This document shows positions 56,512 to 61,869 of a DNA stretch of 64,000 nucleotides, one piece after another. The notes under the pieces are model-generated. The model did not search any database and had not been told where the DNA came from. It saw only the letters and a program-made list of their open reading frames with translations. The first letter of the stretch is position 1, and the number at the start of each line of letters is the position of its first letter. A program made the position numbers and the translations under genes. This DNA is from an uncultured Mucilaginibacter sp. (GTDB lineage: Bacteria > Bacteroidota > Bacteroidia > Sphingobacteriales > Sphingobacteriaceae), in the NCBI RefSeq assembly GCF_937859865.1, contig NZ_CALMAT010000118.1, positions 1 through 64,000 of the forward strand. The letters are read 5' to 3'.

Positions 56512-56661
56512 TCAGTCGTAAGTACCAGTTGGTCGTTTGTCCCCGCCACCAGACATTGTTTTGGAATTCTTTAGCGAAGAAGATACTGGCTTGACATCAT
56601 TTTGCTTCGTACAGGCAGTAACACATACGCCCAATGCAGCGATAAATATTAATTTTTTCAT
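56512..56661 (-). CDS. Small lipoprotein A with SGGGDKRPTGTYD tail, 49 aa
   Basis: Start ATG 56661, MKKLIFIAALGVCVTAC: a lipoprotein signal with Cys17. The mature part is 33 residues and ends MSGGGDKRPTGTYD. A second small gene at 57771-57923 ends SGGGDKRPSGTMD, so the tail is conserved between otherwise different sequences. It has its own perfect terminator. The T9SS hydrolase gene starts 104 bases away on the other strand. The function is unknown; a peptide signal released from a lipoprotein is one idea. Confidence 0.8.
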   Translation of the reverse strand: MKKLIFIAALGVCVTACTKQNDVKPVSSSLKNSKTMSGGGDKRPTGTYD

Positions 56662-56765
56662 ATGGCTAATATATGTTAAATTTAAATCTTTTCTATAAAA
56701 ACAAATAATTTAATTATATATTCGTTAAAAAATTTTAATCTCTTTTCAATAAAAATCAGCGTTAA

Positions 56766-57725
56766 ATGGCTCATAGGTCGGTAAGTTTTTTGCTGCTGCT
56801 TACGGTATGTTTAACATCTGCCATTGCTTTCGGGCAAAAACCAAGTTGTTCTTTATCCTCAAAACTGTATGCTAAAGACAGTATCGAGATCACGACGTTT
56901 GGCGCAAGCACGGTTGCCGGCATCAACGGGCTGCAATTTCAGCCGTATTTAAAGGCCGATTTTGAAGCCTGCTACCCGGGAAAAACGGTTATTGTTGACA
57001 ATTATGGCATTCCCAGCCAAACTACGACACAAGGCTTGGCACGTTTTGAACAAACCATCAAAAACAAGAAAGGCTTTGTATTGATTTTAATGGGGCTAAA
57101 CGATGCACTGGCCATTGTGGACGGCAAAATGAAAATTGCCGAAACACAAAGCAACATGAACAAAATGGTTGAACTTGCTTTGGCTTACAAGCTTACCCCG
57201 GTTATCGGGACCATCCAATTTTTAAACCCCGCCAACAACAAGCGTAACCAAAATGCCAATTACGTAATCAGGCAGATTAATAGGATCTATAAAATGATTG
57301 CGATTAATAGAAAAGTTTATTCTACAGATATCAATGCGGTTTTAGGCCGTGATTTCGCTACTTTATATCAGGACGCTACACATCCCAATGCACAAGGCAA
57401 TATGCGTATTGCCTATGCCTGGTTTGATACCATCAACCTAATCATTGACGAAAAGCTGCTACTGTCCGGTTTAAGCCAAAACTATCCCAATCCTGCTACC
57501 GGTAGCACCACCATCGGGTTTAGTTTATCAAAATCAAATAAAGTTGTTTTAACCTTGTACAATACAGCAGGTGCTGTGGTAAAAACACTGACCAATTCTT
57601 ATTTTAATTCCGGCTATCATGAAATTTTATTTTCAACCACTGATCTTGCGCCCGGCATTTATATTTACGCCATGCAAACGCCAACTGAGCAATATGTAAA
57701 AAAAATGGTTGTTGTAGGCCGGTAA
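56766..57725 (+). CDS. Secreted SGNH/GDSL-type hydrolase with type IX secretion signal
   Basis: 319 residues. Signal peptide up to FGQKPS. SGNH motifs: ITTFGAST with the nucleophile Ser, LILMGLND (block III Asn) and DATHPNAQG (Asp-x-x-His). The C-terminal 75 residues (LSQNYPNPATGSTTIGFSLS, TLYNTAGAVVKTL, LAPGIYIYAMQT, VKKMVVVG) are a type A T9SS sorting domain, so the enzyme is exported to the surface. It may deacylate carbohydrates. It lies between two small lipoprotein genes on the opposite strand. Confidence 0.9.
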   Translation: MAHRSVSFLLLLTVCLTSAIAFGQKPSCSLSSKLYAKDSIEITTFGASTVAGINGLQFQPYLKADFEACYPGKTVIVDNYGIPSQTTTQGLARFEQTIKNKKGFVLILMGLNDALAIVDGKMKIAETQSNMNKMVELALAYKLTPVIGTIQFLNPANNKRNQNANYVIRQINRIYKMIAINRKVYSTDINAVLGRDFATLYQDATHPNAQGNMRIAYAWFDTINLIIDEKLLLSGLSQNYPNPATGSTTIGFSLSKSNKVVLTLYNTAGAVVKTLTNSYFNSGYHEILFSTTDLAPGIYIYAMQTPTEQYVKKMVVVGR

Positions 57726-57770
57726 AAAAATTGTTTGTTGTATAATTGTGCCATATTTGCTAATTATCGG

Positions 57771-57923
57771 TTAATCCATAGTTCCACTTGGCCTTTTATC
57801 CCCACCACCGCTTTTCATAAATTCTTTTTTAATAATTTGAGCTTCCGGGTTTATATTTTCTTTTTTACAAGATACAGTACAAAGCGTTGCCACAGCAACT
57901 ACTAAAAGTGCTAATTTTTTCAT
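57771..57923 (-). CDS. Small lipoprotein B with SGGGDKRPSGTMD tail, 50 aa
   Basis: Start ATG 57923, MKKLALLVVAVATLCTVSC-KK: lipoprotein signal with Cys19. The mature part is 32 residues and ends KSGGGDKRPSGTMD. Apart from the signal, only the GGGDKRPxGTxD tail is shared with 56512-56661. It is divergent from the TPR-HisKA gene, whose start is 138 bases away. Confidence 0.8.
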   Translation of the reverse strand: MKKLALLVVAVATLCTVSCKKENINPEAQIIKKEFMKSGGGDKRPSGTMD

Positions 57924-58061
57924 TTTTTTTAAACTTTAATAGGTTTTCATGCCGGTTTACGTTAAATTTATAGCTTGGGTTACGTGGTAAAACTTTATAT
58001 AGCTATTAACCTCTTTTTAATTAAAAAAAAACGTCCTTACTTCTATTAAAACCCGTACAGC

Positions 58062-59513
58062 ATGATGCTTAAAGTTTTAATTATTAATGCTTTGATGCTG
58101 CTTCTCTTTAAAAGCACAACTTTTGCATTATGGCAACCTGTTGCAGAGCCAGCATTGCAGCATGATGTAGATTCTGTAAACAAACTGGCTTATAATTACC
58201 GTTTAAAGAATCCTGAACAAACTATTAAATATGCAACAACAGCATTTACTTTGGCCAAAAAAATAAACTATTTGAACGGTCAGGGAGAAGCATGCCGTGT
58301 AACAGGGATTGGACAATCTTATATAAGTAAATACGATGAAGCCCTGGATAAATACCTAGAAGCAATTTCATATTTTGAACAAAACAATAATTTTAAAGGG
58401 GTAGGCAAAGTTTATAATAATATTGGTAATCTCTATTCAGCAAATGATTATAATAAAGCTTTAGAATATTACAATAAATCTCTTCTAATTGCAAAAAAGT
58501 TCAATGCTAAACCAGAAATTGCGTCATTATATGTAAACATCGGCATTATTCAGAGGAAGAAAAAAAACTTTAAGGCGGCTTTAGAAAAATTTCAAATCAG
58601 CATGAAGTTATTCCAGCAGTTAGGGAACCAGGAATTAATTATCCAATGCCTGCAGAGTTTGGGAGAAGTTTATAACGATTTAAAACAATACCAAAACGCA
58701 GAAAATGTACTTAATGAGGCTTTTATAAAAGCAAAGGCGAGAGATATGAACTTTACAATTGCCAGCATAGAATTGACCTTGACAAACCTATATCTTAACC
58801 AAAACAAATTTGAGCAGGCAAAAGAAGCATTAAAAAAAGGTTTTGAATATACCAAAACATTAAACAACAGAGATTTGCAGAATGATTATAATTATGCATT
58901 GTATCAGTTGGAATATAAAAGGCAAAACTATCGTGAGGCTTTGAATTATTTAAAAAAGAATTTCAGCCAGGACAGTGCTTATTACCGGCAATCTTTTTCT
59001 AATCGGATTACGCTTGCTTCAGATTTGTTTGAACAATTGGAAAACAGAAGAAAAAATGAACGTACCATTGCCCAGCAAAAATACGCAACTACGCTATTTT
59101 GGTCGAGCACAGCAGTGGCAGCTTTGTTATTTGCCTTAGTTTTTTTACTGGTAATCAACGTCAAAAGAACAAACAAAAATAATAAGGAACTTACCCGGTT
59201 GAACAAAGAAGTTTCCAGGAAAAAAGAAGACCTGGACCGCGTTAACCAAAATTTAGAAGATATTATCGAAACGCGTACGCAGGATTTGAAGGTTAAAAAC
59301 AAACGCCTTTCTGATTATTCTTTGCATCTGTCGCACGAGATACGCGGCCCGATCGCTACTTTAAAAGGCATCGTTTACATTCAGGAAAACAACCTGATTG
59401 ATAAGGATGAATGTATTGAATTGATAAAAAAATGTGTTTTTAATATTGATGACGAAATTATCAACATGAGTAAAATGCTGAACGAGAGCGTTGAGCCAAA
59501 CCCGAAAAAATAA
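58062..59513 (+). CDS. TPR sensor protein with HisKA domain but no kinase ATPase
   Basis: 483 residues. Signal peptide or first helix to about residue 22; six or more tetratricopeptide units at residues 60-320 (YNNIGNLYSANDYNKALEYYNKSL, VNIGIIQRKKKNFKAALEKF); a membrane helix near 345-368; coiled coil; then LSDYSLHLSHEIRGPIATLKGIV, an H-box with His425. The protein stops 60 residues later, so the HATPase_c domain is absent. It could accept phosphate from another kinase. Next to the small lipoproteins it might be their receptor, which is inference. Confidence 0.85.
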   Translation: MMLKVLIINALMLLLFKSTTFALWQPVAEPALQHDVDSVNKLAYNYRLKNPEQTIKYATTAFTLAKKINYLNGQGEACRVTGIGQSYISKYDEALDKYLEAISYFEQNNNFKGVGKVYNNIGNLYSANDYNKALEYYNKSLLIAKKFNAKPEIASLYVNIGIIQRKKKNFKAALEKFQISMKLFQQLGNQELIIQCLQSLGEVYNDLKQYQNAENVLNEAFIKAKARDMNFTIASIELTLTNLYLNQNKFEQAKEALKKGFEYTKTLNNRDLQNDYNYALYQLEYKRQNYREALNYLKKNFSQDSAYYRQSFSNRITLASDLFEQLENRRKNERTIAQQKYATTLFWSSTAVAALLFALVFLLVINVKRTNKNNKELTRLNKEVSRKKEDLDRVNQNLEDIIETRTQDLKVKNKRLSDYSLHLSHEIRGPIATLKGIVYIQENNLIDKDECIELIKKCVFNIDDEIINMSKMLNESVEPNPKK

Positions 59514-59595: not shown

Positions 59596-61869
59596 TTGGA
59601 ATATTTACAAGGGCTAAACCCTTCGCAGCGGGCAGCGGTAGAATGTGTAAAAGGGCCGGTGATGATTATTGCCGGCGCGGGTTCGGGCAAAACACGCGTC
59701 ATTACTTATCGGGTGGCGCATTTGATCCGCAAAGGTGTTGATGCTTTTAATATTTTGGTTTTAACTTTTACCAACAAAGCCGCACGCGAAATGCGCGACC
59801 GGATTGTAACTGTTGTCGGCACAGAAGCTAAAAACATCTGGATGGGAACATTCCACTCCGTGTTTGCTAAATTGCTGCGTGTTGAAGCTGCTAAAATTGG
59901 CTACCCTTCCAACTTTACTATTTATGATACCGACGACAGCAAAAGTTTGTTGCGCGCCATTTTAAAAGAAATGAATCTGGACGATAAGCTGTACAGCGCC
60001 AACTTCGTTTACAACCGAATCTCTGCTGCCAAAAACAATCTGATTTCGTGGCAGGAATACCAGCAAAACGACCAGATTCAAGCCGATGATTTTTCGGGCG
60101 GACGCGGACAATTAGGCAAAATCTACGAAACTTATGCCGTTCGTTGTTTCCGTGCCGGCGCTATGGATTTTGACGATTTGCTTTTCAAAACCAACGAACT
60201 CCTGAAAAAAAACCCGGAAGTTTTGTACAAATACCAGAACAAGTTTAAATATTTGATGGTGGATGAGTATCAGGATACCAACTATTCGCAATACCTGATT
60301 GTCAAAAAACTGGCTGCCATCAACGAAAATATTTGCGTAGTTGGCGATGATGCGCAAAGTATTTATGCTTTTCGCGGCGCCAACATCCAAAACATTTTAA
60401 ATTTTGAATAAGATTATCCTGACCTCAATGTTTTCAAACTGGAGCAAAACTATCGTTCTACCCAAAATATTGTAAACGTTGCCAACAGCATCATCGCCAA
60501 CAATAAAGACCAGCTTAAAAAAACGGTTTATTCGGAGAAAGAACACGGCGAAAAGATAAAAGTGATGCGTGCCTTCAGTGATAACGAAGAAGGTAAAATG
60601 GTGGCCGAAGCCATCCATCAGGAACACGCCAACAAAGGTTTACGCTGGAAAGATTTTGCCATTTTGTATCGAACCAACGCACAATCTCGGGCGATGGAAG
60701 AAGCTTTGCGCAAATTGAACATTCCTTACAAAATCTATGGCGGCTTGTCTTTTTATCAGCGTAAAGAAATCAAAGATTTGATTGCTTATTTCCGCCTCAC
60801 TTATAACCCGCATGATGAAGCTGCTTTAAAACGCGTAATTAACTACCCTAAAAGAGGCATCGGCGATACCACGATTGATCGTTTAATTGTAAGTGCCAAC
60901 CAGCACCAGGTAAGTTTGTGGGAAGCATTGACCGAGCCGGGCAAATATCTGGATGGCAAAACAGCTTCTACCGTAAACAACTTTGTAACGATGGTTCAGA
61001 GTTTTCAGGTCATCACCCAAACCATGACGGCTTACGATGCCGCTTTGCATATTGCCCAGCATTCAGGTTTGTTAAAAGATTTGTATGAAGATAAATCGGT
61101 GGAAGGTTTAAACCGCCACGAAAACATTCAGGAATTATTGAACGGTATCAAAGAGTTTTCGGAACGGGAAGATATTGAAGAAAAAACACTGGATGTTTTT
61201 TTACAAGATATTGCCCTGCTCACTAATGATGATAACGACAAAAACCTGGATGCAGATACCGTTTCAATGATGACGATCCATTCCTCAAAAGGCTTGGAAT
61301 TTCCGCATGTTTTTGTAGTTGGATTGGAAGAAAACCTTTTTCCTTCGCAGTTATCGTTAAATTCGAGGACGGATTTGGAAGAAGAACGCCGCTTGTTTTA
61401 TGTTGGTGTAACGCGGACAGAACATAAGCTGACTTTAAGTTACGCAACTTCTCGGTTTAAATTTGGTACGTTAATTAACTGCGAACCGAGCCGGTTTTTA
61501 GACGAAATTGATGCCAAATTTCTGGAATTGGATTATAGCGCAAAACCGACAGGAAGCGGCAATCCGTTTTTTGATGACGATCAGTTTTCGGGCAAAAACA
61601 AAGATGCTTTCTCCAAACCAAAACCGGCAGCTACCACTGTTAAAACAACTTCTGTTTTGGCCAAAGCACATGTGCCTACGCCTGGCTTCGCCCCTTCTGA
61701 CATGAACAAACTGCAGGTTGGTATGGAAGTGGAGCATGAGCGTTTTGGATTTGGCAAAGTTATCAACCTGGAAGGCAACAAACCGGATATAAAAGCAACA
61801 ATATTTTTTAAAGAGCTTGGCCAGAAGCAATTGTTGCTTAAATTTGCCAAACTTCGCATTGTAGAATAG
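59596..61869 (+). pseudogene. pcrA: UvrD/PcrA-type DNA helicase, interrupted by an in-frame TAA
   Basis: 758 codons in one frame. The TTG start at 59596 is supported by AGGAGA seven bases upstream (59584-59589), a rare clear Shine-Dalgarno here. Motifs: LNPSQRAAVE, AGAGSGKTRV (Walker A), VLTFTNKAAREMRDRI, VDEYQDTN, VVGDDAQSIYAFRGA, LEQNYRST, MTIHSSKGLEFPHVFVVGLEE and VGVTRTEHKL. Codon 272 is TAA (60409-60411), between LNFE and DYPDLNVFK, where a Lys is usual. One substitution would restore it. Either the gene is broken or the base is wrong. Confidence 0.9.

Follow-up and report, generated by a model that had tools for sequence, protein, structure and literature searches.

Two very small lipoproteins, of 49 and 50 residues, differ over most of their length and end in nearly the same tail, which raises the question of what such a tail is for. 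Their genes (lipoA and lipoB; table 1) lie in a 64,000-nucleotide stretch from an uncultured Mucilaginibacter, this whole stretch being referred to here as the window. The reading favoured here, with a probability of roughly two in three, is that the products of lipoA and lipoB are precursors of a short peptide exported as a signal, and that the gene divergent to lipoB, a TPR/DHp membrane protein overlooked in the first-pass annotation, encodes its receptor.

The lipoprotein pair and its putative receptor

The first-pass annotation had proposed two lipobox open reading frames with a common tail, and codon comparison bears this out. The lipobox is VTAC in lipoA and TVSC in lipoB; 11 of the 13 tail residues are identical, while six tail codons differ silently and two by replacement. 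The full-length proteins align at 43% only. Taken together, these figures show that the likeness of the tails is not due to chance. The string SGGGDKRP is invariant in four aligned sequences. The first-pass annotation had named, as what would overturn it, a lack of homologues, or a lack of transcription together with a neutral codon pattern in relatives. Each of the two congeneric genomes has an orthologue of lipoB in synteny (60% and 66% identity), and dN (about 0.26-0.29) is below dS (about 0.5-0.9). No counterpart of lipoA is present in the homologous M20-SGNH interval of these two genomes. From the predicted lipidated Cys onwards the sequence reads CKKEN in lipoB, CTKQN in lipoA and CKKEE or CKKDE in many relatives; the surface lipoprotein signal (LES; PMC5080379) is C-x-K-(D/E)2, in which K-(D/E)2 follows the Cys that carries the lipid.

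Table 1. Features of the locus (window coordinates) and of the second locus in Mucilaginibacter (coordinates within the loci named).
Feature	Coordinates	Strand	Basis
lipoA, 49-aa lipoprotein precursor (MKKLIFIAALGVCVTACTKQNDVKPVSSSLKNSKTMSGGGDKRPTGTYD)	56512..56661	-	extra copy, window genome only, far side of SGNH gene
lipoA peptide-bearing tail SGGGDKRPTGTYD (core KRPTGTYD)	56515..56553	-	invariant SGGGDKRP; silent codon changes vs lipoB
SGNH/GDSL hydrolase with type IX secretion tail, probably outside module	56766..57725	+	only some module-bearing genera
lipoB, 50-aa lipoprotein precursor (MKKLALLVVAVATLCTVSCKKENINPEAQIIKKEFMKSGGGDKRPSGTMD)	57771..57923	-	conserved module member; syntenic orthologues, dN/dS <1
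lipoB peptide-bearing tail SGGGDKRPSGTMD (core KRPSGTMD)	57774..57812	-	invariant SGGGDKRP; silent codon changes vs lipoA
Divergent intergenic region lipoB/receptor gene, 138 bp (shared promoter region)	57924..58061	.	
Putative receptor, 483 aa	58062..59513	+	Pfam, alignments, AlphaFold model, Foldseek
Exported TPR superhelix, residues 30-307, proposed peptide-binding part	58149..58982	+	AlphaFold, Foldseek, co-divergence
DHp segment, residues 412-475	59295..59486	+	His425 invariant in 64/64
Second TPR/HisKA gene and divergent KDTTPP-type repeat lipoprotein	L080 6927-8812; L096 3679-5571; L305-L308; L313		

In the putative receptor, a signal peptide precedes an eight-repeat-like TPR superhelix; next come a transmembrane helix with basic residues behind it, a coiled coil and, last, a DHp (HisKA-like) helix pair. 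By the positive-inside rule, the TPR part would lie outside the cytoplasm. Pfam recognizes TPR_12 (4e-19) and, weakly, HisKA (0.02), and Arg428, Pro430 and Gly436 of the DHp segment are, like His425, invariant in 64 sequences. A HATPase domain is absent: all aligned members end after the DHp segment, and the AlphaFold model (mean pLDDT 85, above 90 in the TPR blocks) shows no further domain. Since the DHp segment has the phospho-accepting His and no ATPase, it probably depends for its output on a partner kinase or response regulator with a gene at another site. Foldseek matches the model to LGN/Pins, kinesin light chain and Rap with Phr-type pheromone; most of the matches are peptide-binding TPRs, yet TPR superhelices resemble one another generally.

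The window genome and its two congeners share the gene order rfbD, M20 peptidase, SGNH hydrolase, lipoB, TPR gene, uvrD and DUF4290-like gene. M20 and SGNH were considered as parts of the module and rejected: genomes that lack the module still have M20, separated from uvrD by a single gene in one of them, and in two such genomes SGNH adjoins M20. The two genes are thus more likely to be neighbours of long standing. At about 60409-60411 the uvrD/pcrA-like helicase gene of the window (59596-61869) has a TAA codon in frame, in a place where its two congeners encode Lys; either the gene is broken or the assembly is wrong at this point. In some Daejeonella-like genomes (L068 9180-9593, L069, L085) a conserved open reading frame of about 135 residues with weak HTH similarity lies between the array of precursor genes and the TPR gene. 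As to regulation, a search for a shared promoter or operator found the canonical Bacteroidota -33/-7 motif in front of 9% of the first genes of arrays and in front of no later gene; apart from the coding end of the copy before, no further upstream motif stood out.

From the exact tail to a repeated core

The exact tail GGGDKRPxGTxD is confined to the small Sphingobacteriaceae genus of the window, no other occurrence being found among 401 genomes of the family; further GGDKRP or GGDKSP matches were rejected as out of frame or in unrelated open reading frames. A protein search of a large genome collection with lipoB alone gave nothing that could be confirmed. A profile of four lipoproteins, on the other hand, retrieves short lipoproteins in many genera, often in tandem arrays, which share one place: between M20 and the divergent TPR gene, behind which lies uvrD, often directly. 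With the search re-anchored on the TPR gene, the strand upstream of it being read, and with 80 loci added from a named collection, 446 precursors were collected at 113 non-redundant loci (1-12 per locus, duplicates removed), from Mucilaginibacter, Daejeonella, Hufsiella, Arcticibacter, Paradesertivirga and some Pedobacter. Against Pfam and NCBIfam, none of the precursors finds a family above cut-off, in agreement with the initial remark that no described family is known.

Judged by the TPR/DHp profile alone, the receptor gene is present in single copy in 84 of 201 family genomes and 11 of 25 genera, and the module is missing from many genera, including the two largest of the sample (g13 and g16). 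Candidate precursors lie divergent to the TPR/DHp gene at almost all loci with sufficient sequence: at 74 of the 78 loci scanned and, in total, at 139 of 158. Contig ends cut several of the loci without a precursor; a few receptor loci have no recognized precursor nearby. Outside the family, no lipopeptide array was found within about 450 bp of the TPR/DHp relatives in three groups (f40, f17 and f15). One genome (G070) carries on contig 11 (L079) a second, partial array and M20 region with no TPR gene and with identical precursors, by duplication or as an assembly effect.

What the precursors have in common is an eight-residue core of the approximate form K-[KR]-D-[LIV]-[GAS]-[TS]-[AWGYM]-D, of which the window tail is one variant, P replacing D in both of its cores. 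In an alignment anchored at the final Asp, which together with the residue before it had itself served as selection criterion, the tail positions are occupied by K at -7 (59%), K/R at -6 (61%), D at -5 (63%), L/I/V at -4 (85%), G/A/S at -3 (94%), T/S at -2 (75%) and A/W/G at -1 (94%). Relatives retain K-x-D-[LIV]-G-T-x-D without the GGG. A lipobox is present in 191 of the 446 precursors and absent from 255 (lipobox and repeat counts stem from regular expressions and are approximate), and two predicted export forms can thus be distinguished, i.e. lipoproteins and plain Sec-exported proteins with up to 18 tandem cores. Therefore, lipid anchoring is inessential, the conserved element being the core and not the anchor, and a family definition by lipoprotein form and GGGDKRP string, as given initially, proved too narrow.

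Many precursors contain 2-18 tandem copies of the core within a single chain, e.g. (SDKKSTGSADL)x13, (AKQDVGQADL)x17, (DKRTVGTGDLN)x11 and (NKKDVGTAD)x8, and one chain (L254) has 18 copies of DLGQAD; in Mucilaginibacter, the core is often repeated inside one protein with a Sec signal and no lipobox. Most arrays include one distal non-lipobox precursor, the ending of which mirrors those of its neighbours (GSFD with ASFD, GSYD with ASYD). Some copies run beyond the final Asp (into GNPNLN or GTPPPQ), so that a free C-terminal Asp is not universal unless the chain is cleaved. The idea that this Asp is the ligand of a carboxylate clamp, of the Hsp70/90 EEVD type, was dropped as a general rule because many copies continue past it. 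Cys-containing variants (CRGCGDWD, CGGCGQWD, CTGCGAGWD) occur in some Daejeonella lipoproteins (L171, L174, L185, L199, L203, L205), and a further copy of this type, ECRKCTETWD, is found elsewhere in one genome (G065, L103).

A second, unlinked TPR/HisKA protein is encoded in 11 of 151 family genomes, all of them Mucilaginibacter, its gene adjoining a pseudouridine synthase and an Rrf2 regulator in several members. In several members, too, the divergent gene encodes a lipoprotein in which another peptide occurs two or three times (KKDTTPPDF x3, RDTVPPDP x2, KKDTTPPP x3; also KDTTTPR and KDTVPPVP). Given that a repeated short peptide is again paired with a divergent, predicted exported TPR/DHp protein, the plan recurs with a different peptide.

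Evidence for recognition and competing readings

To see whether the core is the part under selection, scaffold classes of the same locus were compared. The classes were lipobox, multi-repeat and single non-lipobox precursors, with one representative per 85% TPR identity. In the three comparisons, agreement of the core 8-mer between classes was 0.73 within loci v 0.57 between loci, 0.60 v 0.39 and 0.60 v 0.50, a value reached by 0/5000 shuffles in each case. The eight residues before the core hardly differ in this respect (0.15 within v 0.09 between loci, 0.10 v 0.08 and 0.12 v 0.10). Cores match across scaffolds, then, and linkers hardly do. The view that function resides in the constant tail and not in the varying stalk, the tail being most likely a ligand or exported peptide, is supported. 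Gene conversion could contribute to the matching, but it would need to stop at the core. A pure sorting signal, which had also been considered, is unlikely because the core is repeated many times in one protein and matches that of unrelated neighbouring precursors.

Core divergence also follows that of the receptor. In a distance-based test, not fully tree-corrected, with species divergence measured by M20 and removed, core divergence correlates with TPR-ectodomain divergence at a partial r of 0.32 (0/2000 permutations) and more weakly with the cytoplasmic part (0.20, 10/2000 permutations); given the cytoplasmic part, the value for the ectodomain is 0.34.

A scheme may be drawn from these observations. 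The precursors would leave the cytoplasm via Sec, some in lipoprotein form through signal peptidase II and others in soluble form through signal peptidase I. They would then display or set free the core K-x-D-[LIV]-G-[TS]-x-D, i.e. KRPSGTMD or KRPTGTYD in the window; repetition of the core within chains and across tandem genes would raise the peptide dose. The peptide would be bound in the concave groove of the exported TPR superhelix, and the binding change relayed through the membrane helix and the coiled coil to the cytoplasmic DHp domain, which would probably act on a partner kinase or response regulator from another locus. The signalling logic follows from the exported propeptides, the multi-copy units, the neighbouring receptor of peptide-binding type and the lineage-specific matching. 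Counted against it are the cognate regulator and processing protease, neither of which was found, the lack of an ATPase domain in the receptor, and the fair conservation of the core (K..D.G.xD) across genera, which makes it less hypervariable than many pheromones. The copies that run on past the final Asp, the few receptor loci that lack a recognized precursor and the incomplete tree correction of the covariation tests count against it as well.

Receptor and precursor would, by topology, share the periplasm, and their genes are paired. The same facts, with the lipobox found in the window pair and in somewhat less than half of all precursors, would suit sentinel lipoproteins, the tail of which reports export or envelope state to a TPR receptor of the same cell (as in NlpE-CpxA or RcsF-IgaA) with no intercellular signalling; this is unlikely, as a trafficking sentinel has no need of the many precursors that lack a lipobox, often soluble multi-repeat chains. 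High copy number, repeats and a charged low-complexity character could also describe structural surface peptides, either small repetitive lipoproteins or secreted repeat proteins, which are amplified for dosage and serve as a cell coat, as binders of a surface polymer or as a scaffold for the TPR protein. Here, lineage-specific matching of the core, and hardly of the linker, across unrelated scaffolds and its covariation with the TPR ectodomain point instead to a specific recognition partner and leave such a role very improbable.

Multi-core precursors with a conserved core are typical of RiPPs as well, and one precursor weakly resembles the chryseobasin-related MNIO peptide NF050125 (20.4 bits vs a cut-off of 40), so that an antimicrobial or metal-related role might be imagined, with the TPR protein as regulator, immunity or maturation factor. 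The resemblance, however, sits in the signal sequence, and among the neighbouring open reading frames that were annotated no modifying enzyme recurs beside the arrays: the recurrent genes are M20, the TPR receptor and uvrD only, and M20 is kept in genomes that lack the module. A precursor of the NF050125 kind would be expected beside an MNIO (DUF692) enzyme. RiPP precursors are accordingly considered improbable. That lipoA and lipoB are unrelated small lipoproteins, similar in signal peptide and lipobox only, with a tail shared by local duplication, would account for the restriction of the exact GGGDKRP to one genus; this last proposal is refuted by tails kept despite silent codon divergence and by the family-wide synteny of the loci and conservation of the core, and retains next to no probability.

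Peptide precursors and their receptor thus remain the preferred reading. Whether they amount to a form of Bacteroidota peptide communication unlike any described, with arrays of multi-copy propeptides (some lipidated, some soluble), a TPR receptor in the periplasm, a kinase-less DHp output, lineage dialects in which receptor and peptide co-evolve, and two independent loci with different peptides, is a wider claim for which the odds are taken to be even. Gram-positive bacteria are well known to signal from cell to cell by peptides, and a search of an open literature library for Bacteroidota peptide signalling, Mucilaginibacter repeats and NVEALA returned nothing on this or a comparable system. 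The precursors form a large, previously unnamed bacterial family, and what they belong to looks like an undescribed signalling system. If so, many Bacteroidota of soil, plants and lichens, a large group, have a system that lends itself to direct testing, as its peptides can be read from the genome; the repeats and the within-locus matching of cores would record in nature, to an unusual degree, how ligand and receptor co-evolve; and a TPR sensor on an ATPase-less DHp raises the question of how half-kinases signal. Furthermore, very short open reading frames, easily left uncalled, can encode the ligand half of a system.

Relation to known systems

The lipoproteins and the receptor each recall known Bacteroidota proteins. 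PG1828 family lipoproteins (NF050142) are likewise very short and have a similar signal sequence, but the similarity (22.9 bits vs a cut-off of 50) is limited to residues 1-27, the tail being unrelated. Membrane histidine kinases with a TPR sensor (FimS type, NF053520) share the combination of TPR, transmembrane helix and HisKA, with a partial profile match of 61 v 600 bits at cut-off, whereas the receptor described here has no HATPase; compared with sensor histidine kinases in general, it has the DHp His425 (64/64, with weak Pfam HisKA scores) and lacks HATPase.

Pheromone precursors of the yeast alpha-factor type contain several peptide copies in one secreted precursor and act on a GPCR; the multi-copy secreted precursor is the point of likeness, but there is no homology, and host (a eukaryote) and receptor type differ. 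As to the binding mode, the concave groove of the kinesin light chain TPR binds short W-acidic or Y-acidic linear peptides, with an aromatic beside an acidic residue (PMC6214655). Many tails here end in WD or YD, and KLC-TPR structures are among the Foldseek matches; as kinesin light chain serves cargo recognition in the eukaryotic cytosol, the resemblance may be taken as an analogy of binding mode only.

A close parallel is with the RRNPPA systems of Bacillota (Rap-Phr, PlcR-PapR, NprR, AimR), the propeptides of which are short, exported via Sec by SPI or SPII, often multi-copy, and encoded next to the TPR receptor (PMC9765709). Neighbouring Sec-type multi-copy propeptides are predicted here, from sequence alone, and the TPR superhelix (the RRNPPA criterion being 5-9 TPR motifs) has a model that matches Rap-pheromone structures. 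There are also differences. RRNPPA peptides are re-imported and bound in the cytoplasm, against which the receptor topology argues here; the propeptide gene lies downstream in RRNPPA, whereas gene order here is divergent, arrays reach 12 genes and the host is a member of the Bacteroidota. As the receptor is a predicted exported, membrane-anchored protein with DHp output, and not a cytoplasmic protein with HTH or 3-helix bundle, the system is not a member of RRNPPA; it is best read as an RRNPPA-like analogue in Bacteroidota.
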